From Rheinheimera sp. (lineage in GTDB: Bacteria; Pseudomonadota; Gammaproteobacteria; Enterobacterales; Alteromonadaceae), in contig NZ_JAUYGV010000007.1 of assembly GCF_030690345.1 (NCBI RefSeq), positions 620,001 through 684,000 of the forward strand: a stretch of 64,000 nt of DNA, in the 5' to 3' direction. A program made the translations under genes and the position numbers. Under the pieces are notes generated by a model. It did not search any database, had not been told where the DNA came from, and saw nothing but the letters and a program-made list of their open reading frames with translations. Below, piece by piece: positions 1,641 to 19,876 of the stretch (its first letter is position 1; each line of letters begins with the position of its first letter).

Positions 1641-2576
1641 TTAAAACCCGCTGGCATTTTTAATTAGCCGTAAATGAAAATGACCGGCAGTTTTGTCCCA
1701 AGGGGTAAAACGCTTTAGCTGATAACGCGATGTATCTGCAGTTGATATACCCCAATCGGTGGTTACCGCGCTGACAAAGCCGTTACTTTCCACCAACTTC
1801 ACCGTTATATCGTCAAAGTCGGTGTTTTTTGCACCGTTGGGGTAGGCAAAGTGCTGCACGGGGCTGCCCAGCCAGCTTTCCAGTTGTTGTTTTGATTGGT
1901 TGATTTCCTGCCGCTGCTGCTGTTCCGGTATTACTTTTAAAATAGGATGATTAACGGTATGGGCACCAATAGTCACGCCGCAATCTGCCAACTGCTTAAT
2001 TTGCGCCGGCGACATCATTAATGCAGCTTGCTCGTCTGCATTATTTTGCCGGTAAAACTGGTCAATTTTATCCAGCCGTTGCGCTAACGGCAGATATTTC
2101 AGCTGTTTCAACCATTGCTGCGCTTTGTTGCGTCTGTCCTGCCAATCGCCCAGTTGCACCTGCTCATCGTCCAGCTGCAATTGTTGCCGGCTTTGCGCAG
2201 CAAATAAATGAATTAACCGGTCATTCCACATATTGCGGCCGGTGCTAAAAGCCGTGGCAATGTACACCGTGGCCGGGATGGCATATTTAGCCAATATCGG
2301 CTGCGCGACAGTAAGATTATTCAGATAGCCATCATCAAAGGTTACGCAAACCGCATTGGGCGGCAGGGTATTATGCTTAAGGTGATGCAACGCCTGATCC
2401 AGCGACAACGGCGTAAAGTACTGTTGTAGCAGGCGCATTTGCCAGTCGAACATCTGCGCCGTTGGTTCAGTCGGCCGCATAGGGTCAAATTCGCTTAGCA
2501 CCTGATGGTAAATCAGTATACTCAGCTTGCCACGGCTTGTGAGTTGCCCGGCTAATTGCAGCATTTTATGCAACAT
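1641..2576 (-). CDS. Polysaccharide deacetylase (NodB-type)
   Basis: A 311-residue protein of the NodB/CE4 family, metal-dependent enzymes that remove N- or O-acetyl groups from polysaccharides. Visible family motifs are TFDDG (about residues 79-83, motif 1 with the catalytic and metal aspartates) and HTVNH (about 206-210, the metal-binding HxxxH motif). There is no signal peptide or membrane segment, so a cytoplasmic or periplasm-facing role cannot be told. I chose ATG 2576 over the upstream GTG 2582 because GAGAG lies five bases before it. The start overlaps the end of the asparagine-synthase-like gene, giving tight coupling. It differs from the XrtA-type deacetylase at 22133-22987, so the locus has two deacetylases of distinct subtypes that may act on different sugars or at different stages. 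Confidence 0.85.
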   Translation of the reverse strand: MLHKMLQLAGQLTSRGKLSILIYHQVLSEFDPMRPTEPTAQMFDWQMRLLQQYFTPLSLDQALHHLKHNTLPPNAVCVTFDDGYLNNLTVAQPILAKYAIPATVYIATAFSTGRNMWNDRLIHLFAAQSRQQLQLDDEQVQLGDWQDRRNKAQQWLKQLKYLPLAQRLDKIDQFYRQNNADEQAALMMSPAQIKQLADCGVTIGAHTVNHPILKVIPEQQQRQEINQSKQQLESWLGSPVQHFAYPNGAKNTDFDDITVKLVESNGFVSAVTTDWGISTADTSRYQLKRFTPWDKTAGHFHLRLIKNASGF

Positions 2577-4356
2577 AAGCACTCTCGTGTTGCTGTAGCC
2601 ATAACTCTATCACCACGATAATCCACACCAGTTCGCCGTAGTAGCCGGAATGACCACTTTGAAAGGTTGCAATAACCAGTTCGATGAAATCGGTTTGTAA
2701 AACTTGCCGTTGCTTAAATTGCTGTAATGCCTGCAGCGCAATCTGTTGCAGTTCGGTGTTTCTTTTCATCCAAACACCAAACGGCAGGCCAAAGCCATGC
2801 TTAGTTTTATTTAAGGTGCCATCGGGTAAAAAGCCACGGAAGCTGTTTTTATAAAAGCTGCGCAATGTGCCGCCAGCCAGTTTAAGTTCGGTAGGTACGG
2901 TGCAACTAAAGTCGACAACCTCTTTTTCAAACAACGGGTAGCGTACCTCTACACCGGCTTTTTTACACATGCCAGATACTTTAACCAAGTCATTGTCGCA
3001 AAGCGTGAATTTCCAGTCGAGATACATCATTTTATCTACCAGATAGTCAGATTTGCATTGCAGGAAACGCTGCTGTTGCTGCTGTAATGGTAGTTCGGGG
3101 TTAATGCCGGCATAAAACGCTGTGGTGAACATGTCACTACCGTTGAACCGGTTAAGAAAGTTATAGCTCTCCAGGCGGTCGGGCATTGGCATCTTGGCCT
3201 GGTTGATATAGCTGTGGGCTTTTTTCAGTAGCGGCAGCTTTGCTGCCAGCGGGTTGTAAAAGCTTATATCCAGCAATTTTTGCAAGGCATCGGGTAACTG
3301 ATGATAGCGCTCAAACACTAACTGTTTAACATAGCGCTCGTTACCGGCAAATATTTCATCGCCGCCGTCGCCTGCCAGCATCACCTTGATACCATCTTGT
3401 GCAGCGACTTTGGCACAAATATAGGCTGCCATAGCGGAGGAGTTACCAAAGGGTTCGGTAAAACTTGCTGCGACCGAAGAAAAGTTCTCTGCAATATCTG
3501 CAGGTTGTAAATAGTGCACTTTATGTTCGGTGTTAAAATGCCGCGCTGTCAGCAGTGCATATTCGGTTTCGTCATAACCCTGCGCATCAAAACCGATGGA
3601 GTAGGTTTTGGCTTCTGTACTGTGCCTGGCCAACATTCCGGCTACGGTTGAACTATCAAGACCTCCACTTAAAAAAGCCGCGCAATTAGTGCTGATATTG
3701 CGCCGTACTGCAGTTGATATCACTTCACGACAGCGTTGCTGTAATTGTGCTTCAGTGTCGTTAGCTTGCGTAAAGTCGGGCTGGTAGTAGTTTTCAATAC
3801 GGCCATTACCCGGTTGGCTCAAATCAGCGCAGCTGCCCGGAGGCATTTTCAGTACCTCAGCGTATAGCGACAGGGGAGATGGAATGCAGTGAAAATACAT
3901 ATAGTTATATATGGCTTGTGGGCTGATGCTAAGCGCGGCATCTTGCTGACGAATAAGCTGCACATCGTCGCTGATATAGCAGCTTTGGCTGTTATGTTGT
4001 TTGATATAGCAGGGCACAGAGCCAACATGATCGTTCACTACCTGCACGGTGCCTTGTTTTTTGTCGAAAATAACCAGCAGAAAAAAGCCGGCTATAGCAT
4101 TAAAAAATGCAGCCGGTGTTTGCCGGTATTGCGTTAAAAACCACACTGCGCCGTTTTGCTGCAGCTTGTCCTGAAAATAATCTTGCTGATAGGGCCGCAA
4201 ACGGCCAAGCAGTGCAATAACAGCATTGTCATCCTCTGCCAGATGCCATGTGCTGTCACTGAGCAGTGTTACCTTACGGTTGGCGGTTTCAAGTGTAACT
4301 GCAGCACTTGCCTGTGCTGAATCGCTTTGAGCTGCAACAGTTATTTTCCAGGTCAT
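2566..4356 (-). CDS. Asparagine-synthase-like protein lacking the glutaminase cysteine
   Basis: A 596-residue protein with the two-domain layout of class B asparagine synthetases. The C-terminal ATP-pyrophosphatase domain is intact, with SGGLDSS at residues 230-236 and the DGGDEIF block further on. The N-terminal domain starts MTWKITV, without the Cys2 that acts as nucleophile in the glutaminase half, although the fold seems retained (NAIAGFFLLVIFDKK, VNDHVGSVPCYI). The protein should therefore activate a carboxylate with ATP but not release ammonia from glutamine itself. It could use free ammonia or another amine, as beta-lactam-synthetase-like members do. Contrast the homologue at 15344-17254, which keeps Cys2. 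It sits between a glycosyltransferase and a deacetylase with short gaps or overlap, so amidation or ligation on a sugar acid of the exopolysaccharide is a reasonable but unproven role. Confidence 0.8.
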   Translation of the reverse strand: MTWKITVAAQSDSAQASAAVTLETANRKVTLLSDSTWHLAEDDNAVIALLGRLRPYQQDYFQDKLQQNGAVWFLTQYRQTPAAFFNAIAGFFLLVIFDKKQGTVQVVNDHVGSVPCYIKQHNSQSCYISDDVQLIRQQDAALSISPQAIYNYMYFHCIPSPLSLYAEVLKMPPGSCADLSQPGNGRIENYYQPDFTQANDTEAQLQQRCREVISTAVRRNISTNCAAFLSGGLDSSTVAGMLARHSTEAKTYSIGFDAQGYDETEYALLTARHFNTEHKVHYLQPADIAENFSSVAASFTEPFGNSSAMAAYICAKVAAQDGIKVMLAGDGGDEIFAGNERYVKQLVFERYHQLPDALQKLLDISFYNPLAAKLPLLKKAHSYINQAKMPMPDRLESYNFLNRFNGSDMFTTAFYAGINPELPLQQQQQRFLQCKSDYLVDKMMYLDWKFTLCDNDLVKVSGMCKKAGVEVRYPLFEKEVVDFSCTVPTELKLAGGTLRSFYKNSFRGFLPDGTLNKTKHGFGLPFGVWMKRNTELQQIALQALQQFKQRQVLQTDFIELVIATFQSGHSGYYGELVWIIVVIELWLQQHESAYVA

Positions 4357-8824: not shown

Positions 8825-10093
8825 TTACCAGTTAAATCCAAGTTTTCGTCTGATCCATGCTTTTAGCGAGCCCGGTAGCAGCTTATTAAATGCCGGAGCT
8901 ACTGCCACAGCAGCGCGTCTCGTAGCAGGAGCAAGCACTAAGCTGTTGTACCAATATGCTGTCAACGCAACTTTTTTGAAGGCAGAGAACGAGGTTTTGC
9001 CTGCAAAGCTGTGGCTTAGTGCGTCGTTAAAACAACCGGCATTATTCGCGATGGCCTGTTGCAGCAATTTGTGATCTTTTGCTGGTGGCGGATGTTGCAG
9101 CAGATGCAAAATGTCTTCTGCTGATGCTGACAGCGGCAGTACATTTTGCTCACATCCTACACTGGCTAATACACTGCTTAGTTTAGGATCGTAAGACAAC
9201 GCAACACAGGGTACAGCGGCCAGTATTGCCAGCAGATTAGCATGTAAACGCATAGAAATAAGGCCGTGCAAAGAGGCAATAGTGTCCAGCGTTGCGGTAG
9301 TATTTTGCTCACCGGATAGCTGGATATTGTCGCCGAACCGTTGTTTAAGGGCGTGATACAGCGCGATGTCGCTTTTTTCATACGGCATAAAAAGTACAGC
9401 ATACTGATTGTCAATTAACTGCTCTGTCAGCCGTAACAGGGTTGATTGCTCAAGGCCAGGCCAATGGCGGTAACACAGACCAATAATTTTTTGCTCTGCC
9501 TTTTCTGCCAAATGTTGCCCTTGTAAGAAAATACTGTCGTAACCCTGTTTTACCGTGTTGGGCTTTGGCACCAGGTGTTGCTGTATATATTTAACGGAGT
9601 AGCTGTCACGGCAATAGATAACGTCATTGGCCTGTAAGAAAAGGTTACTCAGTTTTACACCTTGCGTAGATTTTATCGGCCCGGCACCGACACCAAACGA
9701 CATTACCGGTTTATTCATTACTTTGGCGATAGAGGCAATAAAAGCACAGTGCTGTATCAGTCGGGTGCTGTGCGCATCCTGCAGTAAGCCACCACCAACA
9801 AATACCACACTATCCGCCCGGCGAATCGCGCTGATGAGGTTTGACAGGCCTTTAACGTTAAGAGGCTGCCCGGGGTAATAAGCTTCGACGTAATTATAGT
9901 TGTCGCCGATATAGGTTTTGCTGAGTGCCGGTTGGCCTGAGGCGATGGTAATGTGGTTGCTGTACTTTTGGCTGATATGTGCTGCAACAGCAGAGGTAAG
10001 AATTTCATCACCGACATTAATACCACCGACATACCCGGCCAACAAAAAGTGCTTAGACGCGTACTCTGTAGCGTCGCTTTGTTGTTTAATCAT
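8825..10093 (-). CDS. Polysaccharide pyruvyl transferase family protein (CsaB/WcaK-like)
   Basis: A 422-residue protein of the PS_pyruv_trans family, which moves pyruvate from phosphoenolpyruvate onto sugars as a ketal. Diagnostic features are the N-terminal LLAGYVGGINVGDEIL (family 'G..N.GDE'), VVFVGGGLLQDAHSTRLIQH ('GGGLLQD'), MSFGVGAGPI, and C-terminal GLISMRLHANLLAILAAVP with the family's R-x-H. The chosen start is ATG 10093, sharing ATGA with the stop of the flippase gene upstream; the longest frame would add 23 residues inside that gene. The exopolysaccharide therefore probably carries acidic pyruvyl groups, which is an inference from the family. Confidence 0.88.
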   Translation of the reverse strand: MIKQQSDATEYASKHFLLAGYVGGINVGDEILTSAVAAHISQKYSNHITIASGQPALSKTYIGDNYNYVEAYYPGQPLNVKGLSNLISAIRRADSVVFVGGGLLQDAHSTRLIQHCAFIASIAKVMNKPVMSFGVGAGPIKSTQGVKLSNLFLQANDVIYCRDSYSVKYIQQHLVPKPNTVKQGYDSIFLQGQHLAEKAEQKIIGLCYRHWPGLEQSTLLRLTEQLIDNQYAVLFMPYEKSDIALYHALKQRFGDNIQLSGEQNTTATLDTIASLHGLISMRLHANLLAILAAVPCVALSYDPKLSSVLASVGCEQNVLPLSASAEDILHLLQHPPPAKDHKLLQQAIANNAGCFNDALSHSFAGKTSFSAFKKVALTAYWYNSLVLAPATRRAAVAVAPAFNKLLPGSLKAWIRRKLGFNW

Positions 10094-11595
10094 CCCTGAG
10101 AATCCTTTTTCGAACGGCGGGCCATCAATTTGGCCCGTAAAGTGCGAAGCTGTTGCAGCCAAAATTCATTTTTCGTGATGTAACCTAAGTATATTGCAGC
10201 AATTGCGAAATAACAGAATGCGCCTGTGGCAACTTTAGCAAGCAACAGCACCGCGACGGAGTGAACCTGTTGCTTGTCTAAAACATAGCCCAGCAGTTTA
10301 ATTGCCAGCGTCATTAATACTGCGGCAGATATCGGAAAAGCAAACAGCATCAGTGCCTGGCGCAGGGTGAATTTCAGCATCAGGCTGCAGGTCCAGAAAC
10401 TAAGCGGCAAGGTGACTAAGGACACCGCCAGCACGGTGACCGCAGCGCCAAGTGCTCCATAGTGTGATACCGAGTACAAAAGCAGTGGCACAATTACAAT
10501 TAAACGGGACAGAGAAATATAGGTGCTGATATGGGGCTTACCTAAAGCCACAAAGACGTTGCCCATATTTTGTACGGCACAGCGGCTTAAACCATAGAAC
10601 GATAAGATGGATACCATCGGCACTATGTTAAGCCATTTATCACCTAAAAAAAGCGCTACCGCCTCGTGCGCCACGGCGTAAAAGCCAAAACAGATAGGCG
10701 CGGCAAAAAACAACACTACACCGGTGATTTTCAGAAACATGTCTCTTAAGGCATTTATATCTGATTTGACCAATGAATATCCGGGAAATATCGCGCGGCT
10801 AAGCGGAAAGACCAGCTCTGTGGTTGGCAAATTAGATATTTCGTAACTTACACTGTAATAACCCAGCTCAGTAGTATTTGTTCTGTTGCCGATAATCAGA
10901 TCTGTTACTTTATGGTTAAGGAAAATCAGTAAGTTATTAAGCAGCAGCCATTTGGAGAAGCGAAATAATTCCGCTGCCTGGTTTAAGCCGAAGGTGGGGC
11001 GGTAGGGGTGCATAACATAGCTTAACAGTACCCGCGCAATGGCATTACTGAACATGCCGATCACAAGCGCCCAGTAGTTTTGCCAGTAAAACGCCGCAGC
11101 GATGGTGATGGTAAATGACACTAATTTGGTAATAACTTCCAGATTAAACTCTTTTTTCAGATCCAGGTTTTTGCGATATAGCACAAAGCCGATATTTTCT
11201 GCGCTTTTGATCAGCGGAATAAAGGCAACAACCTGCACCACCAGGGTTAAACGGGGGTCGTTAAAAAAAGCGCTGATCCAGGGACTGGCGAAAAATAATA
11301 GTATGGCGAGCAACAAACCTGACAATAGCTTGCATGTCCAGGCGCTGTTCAGGGTGTCATCAGTAACATTATCCTTTTGGATAATGTTGATATCAAAACT
11401 GAAGCTGGTGAATATTTCAAAAAATGCCACCATCGCCATACATGCGGCCATAATGCCGAAATCGGCCGGAAACAGCAGACGGGCAAGAATAATAGTACTG
11501 ATAAACCCAAGGCCTTTAATGCTAAGCCGGGTTAACACAGACCAGGCCGCGCCTATGGCAATCTTTTTACCCAGACCGCGGTTAGCATTACTCAA
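10090..11595 (-). CDS. Wzx-type polysaccharide flippase
   Basis: A 501-residue integral membrane protein of the polysaccharide-export MOP/Wzx family (WzxC-like). It opens with GLGKKIAIGAAWSVLTRLSI and the FISTIILARLLFPADFGIMA signature that marks these lipid-linked oligosaccharide flippases, and shows roughly a dozen or more hydrophobic segments. It should turn undecaprenyl-linked repeat units across the inner membrane. The start is a TTG at 11595: GGAG stands six bases before it and no in-frame ATG occurs until about residue 49. TTGA is shared with the TGA of the ligase gene upstream, and its own stop shares ATGA with the pyruvyl transferase gene, a clear sign of translational coupling. Confidence 0.9.
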   Translation of the reverse strand: MSNANRGLGKKIAIGAAWSVLTRLSIKGLGFISTIILARLLFPADFGIMAACMAMVAFFEIFTSFSFDINIIQKDNVTDDTLNSAWTCKLLSGLLLAILLFFASPWISAFFNDPRLTLVVQVVAFIPLIKSAENIGFVLYRKNLDLKKEFNLEVITKLVSFTITIAAAFYWQNYWALVIGMFSNAIARVLLSYVMHPYRPTFGLNQAAELFRFSKWLLLNNLLIFLNHKVTDLIIGNRTNTTELGYYSVSYEISNLPTTELVFPLSRAIFPGYSLVKSDINALRDMFLKITGVVLFFAAPICFGFYAVAHEAVALFLGDKWLNIVPMVSILSFYGLSRCAVQNMGNVFVALGKPHISTYISLSRLIVIVPLLLYSVSHYGALGAAVTVLAVSLVTLPLSFWTCSLMLKFTLRQALMLFAFPISAAVLMTLAIKLLGYVLDKQQVHSVAVLLLAKVATGAFCYFAIAAIYLGYITKNEFWLQQLRTLRAKLMARRSKKDSQG

Positions 11596-12902
11596 GCCTG
11601 ACTCCGCATTTTAGTAACACCTGTCGCGGGCCGCAGCACCTGCATAGCAACAACCATAGCCAGCACGGCATACAGCAAATCAAAATAGGCTAAGCTAACG
11701 TTGGCGCCGGTAATACCGTAGCCAATAATGGATAAATTCAGCGCACTGCTCAAGTGGTACATCCACTGGTGGTCTTCACTGTGTCTACAAAGCTTATTGG
11801 TGCGGATATTACTGAAATAAGTGCTGCCCAGCATAGCGAGAAAAATAAACAGCCCGATAAAGCCATGGTCACCCAGTACCTGAAAATAGATATTATGTGC
11901 CGCTTTGGGCCGTAAATCTGCCGGGATAGCTGGCGTTTGTATCGGGCCAAAATCGGCGGTATAAGGTGCATAGCTGTTCCAGACAATCGGATTGGTAACC
12001 GCACGAAAACCGCCGCCGGAAACAGGGTGATCCAGCGCTATCATGGTAGAGATTTTCCACGCCCACAACCGGCCGATAAAAGAGCCATCTTCGGTTGCTG
12101 CAGTGGCTACAGTGGTTTGCCGCTCGCGCCAGTCTTCCGGTGCTTTTTGATACAATACAGGCACAAGCAGAAGTGCGACCAAAGCCAGTGGTATTTTATA
12201 CTTAGAGCGCCACCAGAAAGCTACACCCAAAATAGCCAGGCCAATAAAGCCACCGCGCGAATAAGTGCCTATTACAGCAACAACATTCAATACGGCAAGC
12301 CCTAACAGGCCTAAACGGATTAACTTATGCTTAGAGGTAAAATACAAATAAGCTATCAGTGGCAGCGACATATTAATTGCTACAGCAAAATCGTTGCGGT
12401 CTTGAATAACACCGGCACGGCCGACAACTTCATGGCCGCCACCGGAGAGTAAAAATTTTAGCCCTTCCATACCAGCATAGGATGAAACGGATAAAACGAT
12501 ACACCAGACAAAGATATCTAACTGGTAGCGTTTTTTAAGCAGCAGTATGGCAAAGAAAAACAACATGACAACTTTAATAAAGTCAATGAAGTAACCCCAT
12601 ATTTTGGCGCTATCGTAGGTGATGTGAGTCAGTGACGACAAAAATGTCCAGAAACAAAACAGCAACACCAGCCAGCCAATCTTACTCAGATGGACCGACT
12701 TATTTTTTTCGGCCACGATATACGCAATAAGGGTGATCAATACAATGCTCAGGTTTAACCGTAAATGAGTTGAAAAGCCAAAAGCCCATAAGGTGGGAGC
12801 GGTCAGCGCTATCCATATCCAGGCGCAGACACCGATAAAAGGGCGCTTAAAGGTGAAATAAACGACGATAAAAAAGAAAGCAACCAGTAGTAAATCGCGC
12901 AT
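11592..12902 (-). CDS. O-antigen-ligase/polymerase-type protein, XrtA-associated
   Basis: A 436-residue membrane protein. It starts MRDLLLVAFFFIVVYFTFKR, close to the family I know as 'putative O-glycosylation ligase, exosortase A system-associated' (TIGR03097-like). Multiple membrane segments surround a large periplasmic loop. The loop and its border contain TYSRGGFIGL (residues 213-222) and AAHNIYFQVLGDHGFIGL with His336, the conserved histidine block of Wzy_C/WaaL proteins. By family it either polymerises repeat units or ligates a glycan to an acceptor. It starts two bases after the stop of the small 12905-12985 gene and overlaps the flippase gene. Confidence 0.87.
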   Translation of the reverse strand: MRDLLLVAFFFIVVYFTFKRPFIGVCAWIWIALTAPTLWAFGFSTHLRLNLSIVLITLIAYIVAEKNKSVHLSKIGWLVLLFCFWTFLSSLTHITYDSAKIWGYFIDFIKVVMLFFFAILLLKKRYQLDIFVWCIVLSVSSYAGMEGLKFLLSGGGHEVVGRAGVIQDRNDFAVAINMSLPLIAYLYFTSKHKLIRLGLLGLAVLNVVAVIGTYSRGGFIGLAILGVAFWWRSKYKIPLALVALLLVPVLYQKAPEDWRERQTTVATAATEDGSFIGRLWAWKISTMIALDHPVSGGGFRAVTNPIVWNSYAPYTADFGPIQTPAIPADLRPKAAHNIYFQVLGDHGFIGLFIFLAMLGSTYFSNIRTNKLCRHSEDHQWMYHLSSALNLSIIGYGITGANVSLAYFDLLYAVLAMVVAMQVLRPATGVTKMRSQA

Positions 12903-12904
12903 TA

Positions 12905-12985
12905 TTATTCTTCCTGCTTAGTTGCCCAGTAAAACAGGGCAACTAAGGCGCTAATATCAAACAACAAATATAAACTATCTAACAT
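12905..12985 (-). CDS. 26-residue hydrophobic peptide gene inside the XrtA operon
   Basis: A short frame read leftward from ATG 12985 to TAA 12905. The peptide starts MLDSLYLLFDISALVALF and ends YWATKQEE: a single hydrophobic stretch of about 17 residues with acidic residue D10 inside, then a charged polar tail, consistent with a one-pass membrane peptide. GGGAG lies six bases before the ATG, one of the best ribosome sites in the locus. It overlaps the end of the glycosyltransferase gene by 11 bases and stops two bases before the ATG of the ligase gene. Without it there would be an unusual 72-base gap in an operon otherwise packed to within 20 or so bases. I do not recognise a family; a small subunit of the ligase or flippase is a guess. 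It is too short for ordinary gene callers. Confidence 0.65.
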   Translation of the reverse strand: MLDSLYLLFDISALVALFYWATKQEE

Positions 12986-14171
12986 GCTGCTCTCCCTGTG
13001 CTGCAGCAGAGTTACCACGTTGCTGTAGTACTTTATCAAATGTTTGTTTTAACAGAATTATCGATTGATCCCAACTGAGTGTGCGGGCATAGGCGCTGAC
13101 ATCTTCGCGTGCCGGCATATTCTGCTTTAGCGTCAACAAGGCATTGAGCAGGGCGTCAACAGAGAAGTCTTTACTGACGATGCCGGCGTGCGGGTGGGCT
13201 ATAACTTCCGGTGTGCCACCTGCAGGGGTAGTTACTACCGGACAGCCGCACGCCATGGCTTCAAGCAAAACATTAGCCCAGCCTTCGCGGCTTGAAGCCA
13301 GTACCAGGCAATCAGCAGCGTTATAATGTTCGCGCAATTTGTGTTGTGGCTGGGGTGCAATAAACCTTACCCGCTCACTAATACCCAGCCTGGCAACACG
13401 TCGTTGCAATGCGGCTTTTTCCTCGCCATCACCAATAATAGTCAAGGTAACATCGTTTAATTGCGCCACTATGTCGATAATTTTGTGCTGGCCTTTTAAC
13501 TGCACCAACCGGCCGACACTAAGCAGTGCATAACCGCTGTAGCCCAGCTCCTGGCGCAGGGTGTCGCGTTTGTCCTGCGGATAAAACAGCTCAAGATCAA
13601 CGCCGTTGCGAATGGCGATATTGTGTGTCAATGCCGGTTGCAGCCGCTGCATGCGGTTGACCAGATCCTGACAAACGCCAATGGCGGCATCCACTTTAGC
13701 CAGGGTACGTTTGATCTGCCAGCGTGGCACGCTGTATTCAGGTAACAGGTGAATATCGCTGCCTCTGGCGGTTGCCACCAGCGGCAGCTTAAACTTTCCG
13801 GCCAGCCATTGTGCGGCGACGGCATCGGGGTAGATGTAGTGTGCGTCAATCAGATCAAAGCGCTCGCCCTGAGCTAACAGACGGGTTAGCTGCTGTTTCA
13901 GACAATAGTACAGAGTGTAAGGGTTAACATACATGCCCAGCCCCGGCACTGCCAGATAGCTTGGGTGCAACACGCGGATACCGTGTCTGATTTGAGCTTC
14001 TGTATCAGCTGTAGTTTTTGTCGTCAGATACCGCCTTGGGCAGGGCGCAATAACGGTGATTTGCAACTGCGGATAGGCTTGTTTTAACTTGCGCATACGG
14101 GTTTCAACAAAAATACCGTGTTGCGGTTGCTGCGCGTTGGGATACAAGGTGCTGATAGTCAGTATGTTCAT
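12975..14171 (-). CDS. Glycosyltransferase, GT4 family
   Basis: A 398-residue GT4 glycosyltransferase. The chosen ATG 14171 gives the typical start MNILTISTLYPNAQQPQHGI; the longest frame begins six residues earlier inside the previous gene, and neither start has a strong ribosome site. The C-terminal domain shows LLSVGRLVQLKGQHKIID, the ADCLVLASSREGWANVLLEA block with the E-x7-E motif, and AMACGCPVVTTPAGGTPEVI. This arrangement matches the WcaL/'teichuronic-acid GT TuaC-like' group, a loose similarity only. Two bases separate it from the preceding gene, and the small 12905-12985 gene starts inside its 3' end. Confidence 0.9.
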   Translation of the reverse strand: MNILTISTLYPNAQQPQHGIFVETRMRKLKQAYPQLQITVIAPCPRRYLTTKTTADTEAQIRHGIRVLHPSYLAVPGLGMYVNPYTLYYCLKQQLTRLLAQGERFDLIDAHYIYPDAVAAQWLAGKFKLPLVATARGSDIHLLPEYSVPRWQIKRTLAKVDAAIGVCQDLVNRMQRLQPALTHNIAIRNGVDLELFYPQDKRDTLRQELGYSGYALLSVGRLVQLKGQHKIIDIVAQLNDVTLTIIGDGEEKAALQRRVARLGISERVRFIAPQPQHKLREHYNAADCLVLASSREGWANVLLEAMACGCPVVTTPAGGTPEVIAHPHAGIVSKDFSVDALLNALLTLKQNMPAREDVSAYARTLSWDQSIILLKQTFDKVLQQRGNSAAAQGEQHVR

Positions 14172-14173
14172 GG

Positions 14174-15340
14174 TCAATTTGGCCGGCATTGCTCAAACTG
14201 TTGCACAATACGCCATGCGTTGTGGTCCCAGGTGAGTTGCTGCTGCGCAATACTGAGTTTGGCGTTGGCGCCCAATTGCGCAATCAGCGCCGGTTGTTCG
14301 CACAGCTCGTTTAAACATTGGGTAAAGCTTTGTGGCTGCGCCATATCGAACAATAGCGCATTCTGCCGGTGTTGCAGTAACTCGCGGATGTTGGCGCTGT
14401 CCGGTGCGATAATTGCCTTTGCCATATACATGTATTCGAGCATCTTAAGGGGCGAGGCGTAAGGCACTACATCGGGCTGCAGTGCGATATGCATCGGCGC
14501 CAGCCAATCGGGCATATCGTTGCGGCTCACCAGACCACTGACAAAAATCTGCTCACTGATATTCAGCTCTGCTGCCTGCTGTTTTAACGCGGCAATGGCA
14601 GGGCCGTCACCAATGATAAGGAAAAATAACGCCGGATTTTGCAGTTTGGCCATTAGCGTCAGCACCCGATCCAGCCCATGCCACTCGCGGCAAAAACCAA
14701 CAAAACCGATGACTATTTTACCCTGAAGCGGCGGTAATTCTGCCGGAGTAACCTGAGGGCGGGAAAATACCGTTTCGTTAATACCATTTGGTATTACCGT
14801 AATTGCGGTTTCGTTAACGCCGGCCCGGCGCAGATAATCTGCCAGCACATTGGTGACGGGGAAGCAGCGGTGGGCATTTTTCCAGCAATAGTGCTGCGAC
14901 CAGCGCGCCAATCTGTCCAGCGCAATACCATGGTACTTTTTCCGCTCTTCGTATATCGGCGCGTTAACTTCAAGCAGCAGTGGTAGCTTGCAACATTTGC
15001 CGGCCCAGACTCCCGCCGGTAAAAACAGGTTAAAGCGCTCGTAGATAAAATCAGGTTTGTATTTATAAACAGCCGACACTAATTTGATAAAGGCAATAAC
15101 TGCGTACAGCAGTTCCAACACTTCGTACAAATGCTGCGGCAGACGTTGTTTCAGCCAGGCTACGATACCGCCTGAGCTGCCAAACTCACTTTGCTCTGTC
15201 AGTTTTGGTGCGACGATAAATACCTGGTGGCCGGCTTTACGCAGGGAATTAATGATCTCTTCAACATGCACATATTGGCCGTCTTTTGACGCAATACGGT
15301 GATGGTACAAAATTCTGTACTGTTTATTAACGGCGTCCAT
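14174..15340 (-). CDS. Glycosyltransferase, GT4 family
   Basis: A 388-residue GT-B glycosyltransferase. Its N-terminal acceptor domain contains RILYHHRIASKDGQYVHVEE (glycine-containing loop) and PDFIYERFNLFLPAG. The donor domain contains VIGFVGFCREWHGLDRVL, LFFLIIGDGPAIAALKQQA and PLKMLEYMYMAKAIIAPDSA with the conserved glutamate of the nucleotide-sugar site. It begins three bases after the stop of the amidotransferase gene and ends two bases before the next ATG, fully inside the XrtA operon. The LPLLLEVNAPIYEER segment is characteristic of glycosyltransferases often seen next to XrtA amidotransferases, but the sugar is not known. Confidence 0.88.
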   Translation of the reverse strand: MDAVNKQYRILYHHRIASKDGQYVHVEEIINSLRKAGHQVFIVAPKLTEQSEFGSSGGIVAWLKQRLPQHLYEVLELLYAVIAFIKLVSAVYKYKPDFIYERFNLFLPAGVWAGKCCKLPLLLEVNAPIYEERKKYHGIALDRLARWSQHYCWKNAHRCFPVTNVLADYLRRAGVNETAITVIPNGINETVFSRPQVTPAELPPLQGKIVIGFVGFCREWHGLDRVLTLMAKLQNPALFFLIIGDGPAIAALKQQAAELNISEQIFVSGLVSRNDMPDWLAPMHIALQPDVVPYASPLKMLEYMYMAKAIIAPDSANIRELLQHRQNALLFDMAQPQSFTQCLNELCEQPALIAQLGANAKLSIAQQQLTWDHNAWRIVQQFEQCRPN

Positions 15341-15343
15341 GGC

Positions 15344-17254
15344 TTATCCCGGTATAGTTGACTGGCATTCTTTTTCTAAAAATGCGGCAAACATTAATAA
15401 GGTCCACAGTGCAGTGCTGTTATCTTTCATGCCACTTTGGTGTTCAGTCAGTAGTTTTCTCAGTTCAAACTCGTTAAAAAAGCCGCTGCCCAGCATCAGG
15501 TCTGAGGTCAGCTTTTCCTGCAGTCGTTGCCGCAGCGGACCACGAAACCATTCGGCCAATGGCACGGCAAAGCCCATTTTTTGCCGGTACAGTACATCCT
15601 GCGGCAGATGCGGCTCGAGCGCTTTTTTCAGGCCATATTTGCCGGTGCCGCGGTGCAGATTAGCCTCAGACTCTGCAGTAAAGGCCCACTCAACAAACTT
15701 GTGGTCTAAAAACGGTACCCGTACTTCCAGTGAATGCGCCATGGATGCGCGATCTACCTTAGTTAAAATATCGCCCACCAGGTAGGTTTTCATATCGAGG
15801 TATTGGGCTATTTTCAGTGGATCAAGATGCGCGACTTTGGCGCCGTGCCGCCGGAATACCGCTATGGAGTTATAGCCATTTAAACGTTGTTTGAATTCTG
15901 CCGAAAACAGTTTTTCACGCTGATCGTCGCGCAAGATGGCGATAGAATTGTGATAACCGGCAACGGTATCCAACGCCAATGACTGAAACGTGGTTTTTGC
16001 CCGCAGAAATTTAGGTGCCCAGTCCAGCTTCGGGTAGCACTTGCCAAGCAGGCCAAACAGCGGCTTTCTGAGCGCCAATGGCAACCAATTGCGTAAACGC
16101 TGTTCGTGCATATGCAGTTTGTAACGGCGGTAGCCGGCAAACAGCTCGTCGGCGCCGTCGCCGCTAAGTGCTACGGTAACATTACGCCGCGCCATTTCAC
16201 ATACACGGTAGGTTGGAATAGCTGAGCTGTCAGCATAGGGCTCGTCGTACAAGTCGGCCAGTTTATCCAGCAAGTCAAAATCGTGCTCACTGACAATACT
16301 TTCATGATGCGCGGTGTGATAACGGGCGGCGACCTGACGGGCAAATTCGGTTTCATTGTATTTCGGGTTATCAAAGCCGATTGAACAGGTATTGACGGGA
16401 TCGCTTTGCAGGCCGGCCATCATCGCCACCACAGCGCTGGAGTCGACACCACCGGATAAAAATGCCCCCAGCGGCACCTCTGCCACCAGGCGGATTTTTA
16501 CTGCTTCGCGTAACCGGCCAATCAGCTCCTGTTGCAGAGCATCGCTGCTCAGATCTTTTGCCCATTGTGTCGGTACATCCCAGTATTGCAGTGGCTGTGG
16601 CAAGTTATTCTCGCCATGGCGCAGTAATAAGGTATGGCCGGGTGATAACTTAAAGCTATTTTGGTAAATGGTGTAGGGTTCAGGTACGTAGCCAAAGGTA
16701 AAGTAATCTTCTACTGTGCTGTCGCGCAGGGCACGGTCAAACAAAGGATGGTTGCGCAGTACCTTAAGTTCTGAGCCAAATATAAACTCGCCATTGGGTA
16801 ACAGCGAATAAAACATCGGCTTAATACCAAGCCGGTCGCGTGCCAGAAACAGGCATTGCTGTGCCTGGTCCCAGATAGCAAAAGCAAACATACCGCGCAA
16901 ATGCCGGACGCAGTCGGTTCCCCATTCCAGCCAGGCATTGAGAATGGTTTCTGTATCGCCATGGCTATTAAACTGATGGCCCAGGGCGCTGAGTTCGGTG
17001 CGTAGTTCGGCGAAGTTATAAATTTCGCCGTTAAATACGATACAGGCCTGCTTATTGGCACTTTGCATAGGTTGCGGGCTGCCGGCGATATCGATAATAG
17101 ATAAACGGCGGTGCGCTAAGCCGATACCAGGTTGATAAAAATAGTCGCCGGCGTCCGGGCCACGATGCCACTGGCTGTCGTTCATCCGTGATAGGATGCT
17201 GTGCTCAGGCGTTGCCTGATGGGTTAACTGATAAATTCCGGCAATACCGCACAT
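15344..17254 (-). CDS. XrtA-associated amidotransferase, asparagine synthase family
   Basis: A 636-residue class B asparagine-synthetase-type enzyme. It starts MCGIAGIY, so the glutaminase nucleophile Cys2 is present, followed by the WHRGPDAGDY and HRRLSIIDI blocks of the N-terminal domain. The synthetase half has FLSGGVDSSAVVAMM (PP-loop), SGDGADELFAGYRRY and SMAHSLEVRVPFLDHKFVEW. Length and position match the family described as 'exosortase A system-associated amidotransferase' (TIGR03108-like). By family it would use glutamine nitrogen to amidate a carboxylate, possibly a uronic acid in the polysaccharide. It lies between the stp2 glycosyltransferase (two-base gap) and another glycosyltransferase (three-base gap). 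It is the glutamine-using counterpart of the Cys-less protein at 2566-4356. Confidence 0.9.
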   Translation of the reverse strand: MCGIAGIYQLTHQATPEHSILSRMNDSQWHRGPDAGDYFYQPGIGLAHRRLSIIDIAGSPQPMQSANKQACIVFNGEIYNFAELRTELSALGHQFNSHGDTETILNAWLEWGTDCVRHLRGMFAFAIWDQAQQCLFLARDRLGIKPMFYSLLPNGEFIFGSELKVLRNHPLFDRALRDSTVEDYFTFGYVPEPYTIYQNSFKLSPGHTLLLRHGENNLPQPLQYWDVPTQWAKDLSSDALQQELIGRLREAVKIRLVAEVPLGAFLSGGVDSSAVVAMMAGLQSDPVNTCSIGFDNPKYNETEFARQVAARYHTAHHESIVSEHDFDLLDKLADLYDEPYADSSAIPTYRVCEMARRNVTVALSGDGADELFAGYRRYKLHMHEQRLRNWLPLALRKPLFGLLGKCYPKLDWAPKFLRAKTTFQSLALDTVAGYHNSIAILRDDQREKLFSAEFKQRLNGYNSIAVFRRHGAKVAHLDPLKIAQYLDMKTYLVGDILTKVDRASMAHSLEVRVPFLDHKFVEWAFTAESEANLHRGTGKYGLKKALEPHLPQDVLYRQKMGFAVPLAEWFRGPLRQRLQEKLTSDLMLGSGFFNEFELRKLLTEHQSGMKDNSTALWTLLMFAAFLEKECQSTIPG

Positions 17255-17256
17255 GG

Positions 17257-18414
17257 TTAAGTCTGCTTCCTTGTCATTTCGTATAACGTCCTGTATCGCT
17301 GTACCATCGTAGCGATACTAAAGTGCTGCTGGCAATGCTTTTTTACTAACAGACCGTCGGCTTCGCGTGCTGGTGGCGACTGAATATATCGTAGCAGCGC
17401 TGAGGCTAATGCCTGAACATCAGCAGAGGGTACCAGGTTTGTGCTGTGTAACTCCTGCGGCAGTAACTCCGGATTGCCGCCTACAGCAGTAGCGATAACA
17501 GGAGTGCCGCTGGCCATCGCTTCAAGTATGGTATTGGATATGCCCTCGGCTAAAGAGGGCAGTACAAACACATCCAGCCGTTGCATCAGTTGCGCGATGT
17601 CCGCCCGATTACCGGCAAAGATAATCCCGGCGCTGAGCTGATGCTGTTCTGTCAGCTGTTGCAGTTCCTGCCGGCAAGGGCCATCGCCAATCAGTAGCAG
17701 TTTGCAGCCTTGTTTCAGTTGTGGCTGTTGCCGGCACAATAAGGCAAAAGCATTAATCAGCAACGCCTGATTTTTCACTTTAGCCAGCCGGCCCACAGTG
17801 CCGATTAACAGTGGCGGGTTGTTAGCTGCAATAGCAAAAGTGCTGAGATCTGCCGGCTGTGCCAGGCTGAATTTATCAATATCCACGCCATTGCAAATGC
17901 GCCGGATTTTATCGTCTGCCAGATGAATATGTTGTTTAAGATAATGCTCTGATTCGGCAGATAAGCAAATGTACTGATGCACAAACACTTTGAGCAGACG
18001 GCGCAGCAGGCGGTACTTTTTGTTGCTGCCGCCAACGTCATAACTGTCCCAGCCATGTTCGCCGTGCAGACGCAGCGGCACCTTGCGCCACCAGCCTACA
18101 GCTTGCAACTCCAGCGTGGCAAGATTGCGGCTGTGTAATACATCGGGTTGTAATTGCTTTAGTAAGCGGTTCAGTTTGCCCGGCAATGACCAGTCATGGC
18201 CTTCACGTTTTTCCAGGTTATAAAGACAAACATTGTTACTTTGAATGCGTTTAACAAACTCAGTATCAAAACCGGTTAATGTCACTATGCTGTGGCGGAA
18301 TTTGTCTGGCGGCAGCTGATTAATCAAATTAACCAGACCATTTTCCAGCCCGCCGGTGGCAAAGTGCCATACCAAATGCGTGATATGGATCGGTTCTGCA
18401 GCTTGCTCAGTCAT
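17257..18414 (-). CDS. Glycosyltransferase of XrtA locus (stp2 type)
   Basis: A 385-residue GT4 glycosyltransferase. I start it at ATG 18414, giving MTEQAAEPIHITHLVWHFAT, where HITHLVWHFATGGLENGLVN is the typical opening of the family I know as 'sugar transferase, PEP-CTERM/EpsH1 system associated' (TIGR03088-like). The longest frame would add 30 residues inside the exosortase gene. The donor domain shows LIGTVGRLAKVKNQALLI, LLLIGDGPCRQELQQL and VFVLPSLAEGISNTILEAMA with E-x7-E. The start overlaps the exosortase stop by eight bases. Confidence 0.88.
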   Translation of the reverse strand: MTEQAAEPIHITHLVWHFATGGLENGLVNLINQLPPDKFRHSIVTLTGFDTEFVKRIQSNNVCLYNLEKREGHDWSLPGKLNRLLKQLQPDVLHSRNLATLELQAVGWWRKVPLRLHGEHGWDSYDVGGSNKKYRLLRRLLKVFVHQYICLSAESEHYLKQHIHLADDKIRRICNGVDIDKFSLAQPADLSTFAIAANNPPLLIGTVGRLAKVKNQALLINAFALLCRQQPQLKQGCKLLLIGDGPCRQELQQLTEQHQLSAGIIFAGNRADIAQLMQRLDVFVLPSLAEGISNTILEAMASGTPVIATAVGGNPELLPQELHSTNLVPSADVQALASALLRYIQSPPAREADGLLVKKHCQQHFSIATMVQRYRTLYEMTRKQT

Positions 18415-19876
18415 AATCAGCGCCGGTAACAGCAACTGTTGGTAGGGCAGCCGTCTGTTGTAGTGTCTGAGCAGCACGGCGCAGTAGCTGCACTTCGCCT
18501 TCATCTGCTTTGCCGGCTACTGAAACTGCATAGACAGCCGCAACAGAGCTGTCATCAGTAAGAAAAGCTAAAGCCTGATGAAGTTTAGCTTGCGGACTGC
18601 TGATTACGCTGTGTTGCCCGATCTGATACCAGTACAACAGGCTCCTGTAGCTACCGTCGCGTGCCTTTAATTGCAAAATAACAGTATTGTCCCGTGCGAC
18701 TCTGTCTTGCACTTGCCAGCGCTTTGGGTCAAACAAAGCATTTTGCCAACTGATTAATTCACCGACATGCTGCTTGTTTGCATAAAACGCAACAAAATAG
18801 CTGATTCCGGCATTATCAGTGCCTTTTCCCAGCGCCTGGCTGTGTGGAAAGCTGATTCCCCAATCTGCTATAGCGTTGGTGTTTGTGGCGAAAGGCAGGG
18901 AGACTGATACAGCGCTGTCTGGTGTGGTTTGGGCATGCAGTGACAGAGTAAAGCTAAGCGTAGCTGCCAGGGTGAATAAAGAGCAGATCACAACACTGCT
19001 TTGCAGTTGCGGTGTTGCATTACTGCTATTGCTGCGGCTCAGTGCTACCTCTTGGTCGGCAAAGCGGCCACCAAGCCAAAAGCCCGCCAGCAATACAGCA
19101 CCGAAAAACAGCCAGCCGTAAAGATAATGATCGGCACCAAAGCCGAAGCGCATATTCGACACTTCTCCGATATACACCAGCATAAATGCCCTGACACCAT
19201 TAGCCAGTACAGAGATTAATGCCATAAAAACTACAAAACTGACGTGTTTCCATATGCGATTAAAAGTGAGGTAACTAAACAACACTGATATAGCAATGGA
19301 TGCAATTAAAAAACGCAAACCAGAGCAGGCTTCGGCCACTTCAAATAGCCCGGCCGGCGTCGCCAGATATAAGCCTTCGCGATATACCGGTATATTCACC
19401 CAGTGCAGCATCATTACGGTCAGATCCGCGGTGATATCTTGCAGAAGCGGTGATAGTTCTTCGCCAAACGGGACGAGAAAAATCAGATAACCTATAGCAA
19501 ATACATAACGGCGTGCAACGCGGCTACCCAACACCAGCCACAACAGCATCTGCAGTGTTACCACAGCAGCCAGATGCATCAGTAGCGCGATGTCGGCGGC
19601 AAAACCTAACAACCAGACAAATTGAGTTGTGATTAAGATTAATAATGGCAGCCAGGCGACGGGGACGGCACTGCTGTTAGTGTTAACGCTGGTTTTTGCA
19701 CGATAAAAAAAGTACAAACTGATAGGCAGGATCAGATAGCAATGATTATAGGTTGCTGATGAACGCCAGACCCGTTCCATGTCCAGCCATGCATCAGCGT
19801 ACAGCAAGATATAGCAAATTAACGCCAATAGCAGAAGCAGTAATCTGATTGGCAAAGCATTGACCATTGGTATCAC
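18407..19876 (-). CDS. xrtA: Exosortase A fused to an EpsI domain (XrtA)
   Basis: A 489-residue membrane protein. Residues about 1-280 form an exosortase with several membrane segments and the catalytic set Cys184 (in EACSGLRF), Arg229 (in ANGVRAF) and His250 (in DHYLYGWLFF). Residues about 290-475 form an EpsI/DUF3485 domain (ISYFVAFYANKQHVGELISW, SLLYWYQIG) beginning after a further membrane helix, so the exosortase and EpsI are one polypeptide. By family, exosortases cleave PEP-CTERM tails at the inner membrane and probably transfer the protein to a surface anchor. The start is GTG 19876, with GGAG seven bases upstream and GTGA shared with the previous gene; an ATG nine bases later is an alternative. 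No PEP-CTERM substrate was found in this window. Confidence 0.93.
   Translation of the reverse strand: MIPMVNALPIRLLLLLLALICYILLYADAWLDMERVWRSSATYNHCYLILPISLYFFYRAKTSVNTNSSAVPVAWLPLLILITTQFVWLLGFAADIALLMHLAAVVTLQMLLWLVLGSRVARRYVFAIGYLIFLVPFGEELSPLLQDITADLTVMMLHWVNIPVYREGLYLATPAGLFEVAEACSGLRFLIASIAISVLFSYLTFNRIWKHVSFVVFMALISVLANGVRAFMLVYIGEVSNMRFGFGADHYLYGWLFFGAVLLAGFWLGGRFADQEVALSRSNSSNATPQLQSSVVICSLFTLAATLSFTLSLHAQTTPDSAVSVSLPFATNTNAIADWGISFPHSQALGKGTDNAGISYFVAFYANKQHVGELISWQNALFDPKRWQVQDRVARDNTVILQLKARDGSYRSLLYWYQIGQHSVISSPQAKLHQALAFLTDDSSVAAVYAVSVAGKADEGEVQLLRRAAQTLQQTAALPTVAVTGADYD

Follow-up and report, generated by a model that had tools for sequence, protein, structure and literature searches.

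Sequence comparison across genomes identifies the short open reading frame (ORF) at positions 12905-12985, on the minus strand of the window (the whole 64,000-nucleotide stretch of Rheinheimera sp. DNA analyzed here), as a real gene that usual annotation overlooks for its shortness. The same comparison shows that this ORF pairs with one of the two large groups of sampled TIGR03097 ligases. We propose, with a probability of about 0.62, that it encodes a 26-residue single-pass membrane protein that is inherited with one TIGR03097 clade, has its translation linked to that of the ligase, and would pack against the ligase as an extra helix that stabilizes or activates it.

The ORF runs from an ATG to a TAA and encodes MLDSLYLLFDISALVALFYWATKQEE, a peptide with an acidic N-terminus (D3, S4), a single hydrophobic segment at about residues 5-19, and a C-terminal end that is aromatic, basic, and acidic (W20, K23, E25). 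The upstream glycosyltransferase gene (12975..14189, minus strand) ends at 12975 and overlaps the ORF by 11 bases; within the 3' end of this gene lies a Shine-Dalgarno-like GGGAG (12992..12996, minus strand), separated from the ATG of the ORF by the six bases AGCAGC. On the other side, a 2-base gap (12903-12904) precedes the ATG of the ligase gene at 12902, whose probable Shine-Dalgarno sequence AGGAAG (12910..12915, minus strand) is located inside codons Q24-E25-E26 of the small ORF. The gap between the glycosyltransferase and ligase genes is 72 bases. The first-pass annotation had described the GGGAG six bases before the ATG, the 11-base overlap, and the 2-base and 72-base gaps with exact coordinates, and translation of 12905-12985 also bears out its description of a peptide with one hydrophobic segment and a charged tail.

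The surrounding cluster, on the minus strand of the window, comprises genes for XrtA, a FemAB-like protein, a deacetylase, stp1, stp2, an amidotransferase, a sugar transferase, and export proteins, each scoring over its cut-off. The locus is marked by exosortase A (XrtA), a 489-residue ORF at 18407..19876 (minus strand) with 303 bits for TIGR03109, over the cut-off. Its C-terminal EpsI-like part gives 31.8 bits for TIGR02914, below the cut-off of 42.8. In addition to the full-score amidotransferase at 15344-17254, the window holds a second amidotransferase-like gene at 2566-4356 (minus strand), with 231.5 bits for TIGR03108 (cut-off 816.9) and a match that covers residues 85-589 from profile position 116. 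The gene upstream of the small ORF encodes a GT4 glycosyltransferase whose best NCBIfam match is TuaC; as its score stays below the cut-off for each of the 25 families shown (of 35), it is not a formal "stp" protein, and calling it an stp-type glycosyltransferase, as had been done, is loose. Downstream, a MOP-type flippase gene (10090..11595, minus strand), whose start is read as a TTG, begins within the end of the ligase gene.

To follow the ORF beyond the window, ligase upstream regions were gathered from the genus, family, order, and class of the window, together with 80 named records. All of the 20 same-genus or same-family loci, with ligases 52-91% identical, have a small ORF directly before the ligase, starting 83 bases before it in 19 of them and mostly reading MIDSLYLL, a hydrophobic stretch, and YLFYWADKQDKS. 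Distant forms are, for example, of the type MES-LWA-N/D-L-AVVYLCFWAIK-x-D followed by a charged tail of variable length (Thalassotalea L097, Colwellia L099, Vibrio L103, Undibacterium L105, Massilia L107, and more loosely Photobacterium L130), and the peptide of Methylomonas L115 begins with MIET. A profile built from 21 peptides of the same loci was run in six frames over 163 loci. It matched in 79 of the 80 named loci, a fraction that describes one ligase clade since the 18 ligases of the query alignment had been chosen for having the ORF (the 80 being the best of 547 relatives). These matches lie on the same strand as the TIGR03097 ligase and upstream of it, starting 80-146 bases before it (296 in Sedimenticola L119), and no second match per locus was found at E<0.5 in the six frames of the 163 loci. 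At the one locus of the 80 that was missed, L132, a comparable hydrophobic ORF stands in the expected place, as judged by eye. According to record titles and family names, the carriers belong to the Alteromonadaceae, Colwelliaceae, Chromatiaceae (Rheinheimera), Halieaceae, Vibrionaceae, Methylococcaceae, Sedimenticolaceae, and Oxalobacteraceae.

The peptides of 88 loci are 26-49 residues long. Among 85 distinct peptides, in a table anchored at the N-terminus rather than freely aligned, D/E occupies position 3 in 84, S4 is found in 77, W20 in 67, K/R at position 23 in 68, and D/E at position 25 in 80; position 10, within the hydrophobic stretch, is polar or acidic in about 64%. With ligase starts extrapolated from tblastn, the stop of the ORF overlaps the ligase start in 61 of the 88 loci, and the distance from the end of the ORF to the ligase is 185 bases in L119 and 11-18 bases in L130, L131, and L133. 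The two are in frame and parted by the ORF's stop in 8 of the 88 loci, among which no natural peptide-ligase fusion was found.

The reading frame itself is open across the ORF span in all 88 homologous loci, against 7 and 6 of the 88 for the other two forward frames, and only this contrast between frames is informative because the loci were picked for having the ORF. A Shine-Dalgarno match of at least 4 bases precedes 72 of the 88 ORF starts, compared to 309 of 1777 ATGs internal to ligase genes. For 16 non-overlapping pairs drawn from 35 distinct short-form genes, with L121 left out and only pairs with 4 to 26 differing bases used, dN/dS is 0.064, with 154.6 synonymous changes per 239 sites and 90.4 replacement changes per 1009 sites. 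An earlier run that included L121 and wider pairs (36 genes, 18 pairs) gave 0.074. The pN/pS is 0.139, compared to a null of 0.78 +/- 0.10 when the same number of changes is placed at random, and none of 500 draws was as low. Since AGGAAG occupies the last codons, C-terminal conservation in the short form could stem partly from the ribosome site. Outside this Shine-Dalgarno stretch, codons 2-19 give a pN/pS of 0.158, again with no draw of 500 as low, and the K/R-x-D/E motif also occurs in the long forms, farther from the ligase start. By these comparisons, purifying selection acts on the small ORF at the protein level. The check proposed in the first pass, translation of the small frame in other loci with a measure of selection, thus returned a conserved peptide, and neither of the outcomes named there as refuting, a missing hydrophobic frame or random stops, was encountered among relatives that have the same type of ligase.

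The less biased tests of what the ORF travels with are a genus table covering all 31 of its genomes and a class sample. All 16 genus genomes with a carrier-type ligase (55-100% identical to that of the window) have a strong peptide match (E 3e-11 or better) directly before the ligase, whereas none of the 8 with the other ligase type (33-34% identical) and none of the 7 lacking a TIGR03097 match over the cut-off has one. Of the 31 genomes, 27 have an XrtA score over the cut-off, namely 16/16 carriers, 8/8 with the other ligase type, and 3/7 without the ligase. The 11 of these 27 XrtA genomes that are devoid of the ORF all lack the carrier ligase type as well, so the ORF follows the type of ligase and not XrtA. 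In 43 carrier genomes picked from the 80 named loci, XrtA is over its cut-off in 42. The XrtA scores of the genus (G000-G030) fall into two bands of about 276-308 and 338-355 bits; the lower band is mostly found with a peptide-bearing ligase, and the carriers G017 and G004 have an upper-band XrtA. In the class sample, two of the 29 loci other than the window's own (L137 and L139) have the ORF and 27 do not, as judged by the profile. Among 398 genomes of the phylum, the peptide profile matched in 5, the best match of each being beside a ligase of the carrier type, a count that is too low for divergent forms because members in two genomes of this sample (G065, G205) were missed at the threshold used; L049 and L132 are further divergent members that the profile missed. 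Weak stray matches away from the ligase (E 2e-4 to 0.01) appeared in six same-genus genomes, all in frames of 99-130 residues, beside a strong match in the window's own genome, G030, and G013, and without one in G027, G022, and G016. The stray match of the own genome (L169 1498-1797) was set aside as the N-terminal anchor of a 99-residue ORF, an anchor that resembles the peptide, and the other five are taken to be alike.

A tree of the ligases gives the same picture. Of the loci up to L163, 143 rows remained once short ligases, identical ones, and the duplicates (L001, L137) had been removed. Carriers account for 90 rows (88 by profile; L132 and L049 by eye); together with two rows set apart as unclear (L029, L052), they form one side of a branch with an SH-aLRT support of 98 in a tree that was built by a quick method and gave long-branch warnings for L029, L049-L052, L119, L132, and L139, among others. 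Outside this branch, none of the 51 ligases has the ORF by profile. Being confined to one TIGR03097 ligase group, the peptide would not be a general XrtA subunit, and the 51 of 143 TIGR03097-type rows without it indicate that it is not needed for the basic chemistry of the ligase. The match of ORF and clade could reflect one old event followed by shared inheritance. Covariation between peptide and ligase is barely above that of 30 within-cluster shuffles, with a maximum of 0.41 vs 0.388-0.392 and a mean MI of 0.065 vs 0.060. The earlier proposal of a conserved small XrtA-ligase subunit missed for its length therefore stands in its central idea: a real, conserved, ligase-linked membrane peptide is borne out by the 79/80 loci, the 16/16 genomes, and the dN/dS, its scope narrows from XrtA loci at large to one ligase clade, and the role as a subunit is a probable one, to which we return below.

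In contrast to the ligase, the other neighbors change. The glycosyltransferase gene of the window is replaced by a different gene in several relatives, and among ten relatives in which the gene upstream of the ORF was tested against families, eight were assigned and two (L103, L132) had no family found. The assignments are a flippase in Photobacterium (L126, L130), an acyltransferase in Methylomonas (L115), an IS4 transposase in Sedimenticola (L119) and, with scores under the cut-offs, a CoA-ligase-like gene in Haliea (L058), a same-genus relative (L023), and Thalassotalea (L092) and an stp2-like glycosyltransferase in Aliivibrio (L124). The CoA-ligase-like genes (L058 2398-3918, L023 54-1415, L092 2465-3856) encode a PaaK-like AMP-dependent CoA ligase, which is unexpected in a polysaccharide locus. 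The ORF and ligase are parted from the preceding gene by 258 bases in L130 and 210 bases in L101, and may thus form their own unit there. Comparison therefore shows no constant pairing of the ORF to other neighbors or to XrtA as such. The coupling to the flippase gene suggested by the first-pass annotation has to be given up, as the identity and position of the flippase vary while the ORF stays by the ligase.

Three annotated RefSeq plasmids, all from Vibrio alfacsensis, carry the ORF, and in their gene tables, which are incomplete, no feature is listed between the consecutive locus tags at the ORF; a fourth plasmid with the ligase carries no annotation. In pVa1 of V. alfacsensis CAIM 1831 (L171 2001-3313), the ligase is annotated in two pieces with an intact small ORF upstream, which matches exactly the ORF of two strains whose ligase gene is in one piece. 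In a V. alfacsensis plasmid (L170 6001-13203), the ORF-ligase pair adjoins a tyrosine-type integrase and lies near prsR/prsK, and this position on a plasmid beside an integrase suggests that XrtA glycan modules may move.

The partner is a TIGR03097 putative O-glycosylation ligase (DUF5935 + Wzy_C) of 436 residues encoded at 11592..12902 (minus strand), with 374.5 bits for TIGR03097 (cut-off 188.1) and 72.4 bits for PF04932 (Wzy_C; cut-off 31.7). Its structure model has a pLDDT of 94.2 and a predicted WaaL fold; with Foldseek, WaaL (7tpg) is the sole solved match under E 0.001 (E 2e-5, TM 0.61), followed by weak matches to FtsW and RodA-PBP2 complexes (E ~0.01). R216, R261, R278, and H336 are invariant in 89 ligases and, by analogy, may have a catalytic role. 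Comparing 65 sequences of the peptide clade with 24 of the other group, we found 20 group-specific conserved positions, including R48, N50, E146, K149, D168, and K283, and an insert of about 15 residues (309-327) that is present in most peptide-clade ligases and nearly absent from the other group. From the order of the helices, the insert and most of the clade-specific residues would face the periplasmic, catalytic side, and they may mark a different substrate rather than a peptide contact. The enzyme of the window could act either as an O-glycosylation ligase or as the enzyme that polymerizes the XrtA exopolysaccharide. Its genome holds no other TIGR03097 match, while two further Wzy_C proteins are encoded 130-145 kb away. 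Of their genes, one (L176) overlaps its upstream gene by 8 bases; the other (L175) has an upstream gap of 86 bases with a terminator-like stretch and, judged by eye, no peptide-like ORF. Ahead of the L175 gene is a short Ala/Val-rich ORF that has a signal-like start and, toward its end, a long run of Gly.

Beyond the pairing of gene and ligase, which comparison establishes, we infer translation, topology, physical binding, and activation. The peptide would be translated just before the ligase, its translation being linked to that of the ligase. By the positive-inside rule, a K/R-rich end stays cytoplasmic, so the peptide is predicted to insert N-out/C-in, with the acidic N-terminus in the periplasm and the K/R-x-D/E end in the cytoplasm. 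A long-form peptide modeled alone forms one helix at residues 3-42 (pLDDT 82, pTM 0.41), a result of little weight. Such a free-standing helix would pack against the WaaL-fold ligase and could raise its activity or stability, on the model of RodA and the single transmembrane helix of PBP2.

Several other roles have to be weighed against that of a stable subunit. A peptide needed only for the folding or protection of the ligase during membrane insertion would fit a gene directly before the ligase, with the stop/start overlap in 61/88 loci, and a single hydrophobic segment with a charged end; we consider this unlikely, as the other-group ligases of the same family do without such a companion. 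Small single-helix proteins often tune enzymes, and the existence of ligases without the peptide would agree with a peptide that restrains the ligase or sets its output, like the small regulators of membrane pumps. A switch would, however, be expected to be expressed separately and not from right before the ligase, as in 16/16 genus genomes, which makes this role decidedly unlikely. It appears improbable that the peptide is a subunit of another protein of the XrtA locus (flippase, export protein, or exosortase) with an incidental adjacency to the ligase: XrtA does score over its cut-off in 42/43 carrier genomes tested and in 16/16 of the genus, but 11 of the 27 XrtA genomes of the genus are without the ORF, all of them also without the carrier ligase type, and other genes shift or change identity while the ORF stays by the ligase.

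Very improbable, in our estimate, is a leader or coupling ORF for which translation of the frame would matter for ligase expression and the peptide itself would not. The ligase Shine-Dalgarno sequence within the last codons of the short form and the common stop-start overlap (61/88) are what such an ORF would show, but selection acts at the protein level outside the Shine-Dalgarno stretch (codons 2-19), the same residues recur in long forms with the motif farther from the ligase, and the ORF ends 185 bases upstream in L119 and 11-18 in L130, L131, and L133. As for a chance ORF in an intergenic gap, a frame of merely 26 codons with no database family at cut-off could invite this reading, yet conservation across families, dN/dS, the open frame, and the ribosome site refute it, and its probability is as good as negligible.

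Should the peptide be a dedicated micro-subunit, work that expresses or reconstitutes the ligase from its annotated gene would leave out a partner, results from deletions or transposon insertions in the region would have to be interpreted anew, and the idea of a single-helix activator would extend from SEDS polymerases to the O-antigen-ligase branch. We rate as somewhat better than even the chance that an entire clade of WaaL/Wzy-fold glycan ligases or polymerases has its obligate subunit in this unnamed family of 26-49 residues; bacterial surface-glycan ligases could then consist of two subunits, a free single helix acting as that of PBP2 does for RodA. The family is easily found from its fixed place and its 26-49 codons, and annotation pipelines could therefore add it. 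When the same eight peptides were scanned against NCBIfam and Pfam, none scored over any cut-off. The match of the window peptide to CydS (PF22282) was rejected at 16.7 bits (E 0.0067, 15 residues matched, cut-off 25 bits). Nothing recognizable as a small XrtA-ligase partner was found among open-licence papers in PMC, and the TIGR03097 family names returned no paper in open-licence full texts.

Taken together, this overlooked gene is dedicated to a single clade of WaaL-fold XrtA ligases, and its product is most likely a subunit made of one helix: it has one hydrophobic segment, is shorter than about 50 residues, and is conserved beside one enzyme. Among the known systems that come close are the other-group TIGR03097 ligases, which belong to the same family and also occur with XrtA in the genus (8/8), but for which no small ORF was found; they are without the insert 309-327 (24 sequences), and in 15 of 20 loci (L002-L012, L032-L040) the gene before the ligase extends 8 bases past the ligase start. 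CydS and CydX are small single-helix subunits of a large membrane enzyme, an oxidase; the likeness is that of a small single helix by a big enzyme, and the difference is that the neighbor here is a ligase. For RodA, PMC10449877 reports only residual activity of RodA alone and significant stimulation by the transmembrane helix of PBP2, also when this helix alone is fused. The RodA-PBP2 complex (8tj3) shows a weak Foldseek likeness to the window ligase (E 0.01), and the parallel is a single helix that stimulates RodA (PMC10449877). The PBP2 helix is one part of a large enzyme that has a periplasmic domain, whereas the present peptide is a helix and a tail with no sequence relation shown. OST4 is described in PMC12673850 as a largely membrane-embedded miniprotein subunit of the eukaryotic oligosaccharyltransferase, a lipid-linked glycan transferase, TMEM258 and OST4 together spanning 37-79 residues; the enzyme is a different one, our peptides match no Pfam family at cut-off, and homology is not claimed. 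YohP of E. coli, as described in PMC7549839, has 27 residues and one helix, is mostly Nout-Cin, and is inserted via SRP and SecYEG or YidC. YohP-like proteins are tied there to stress responses, no link to a polysaccharide enzyme being found there, but resemble the proposed peptide in size, helix, and main topology.
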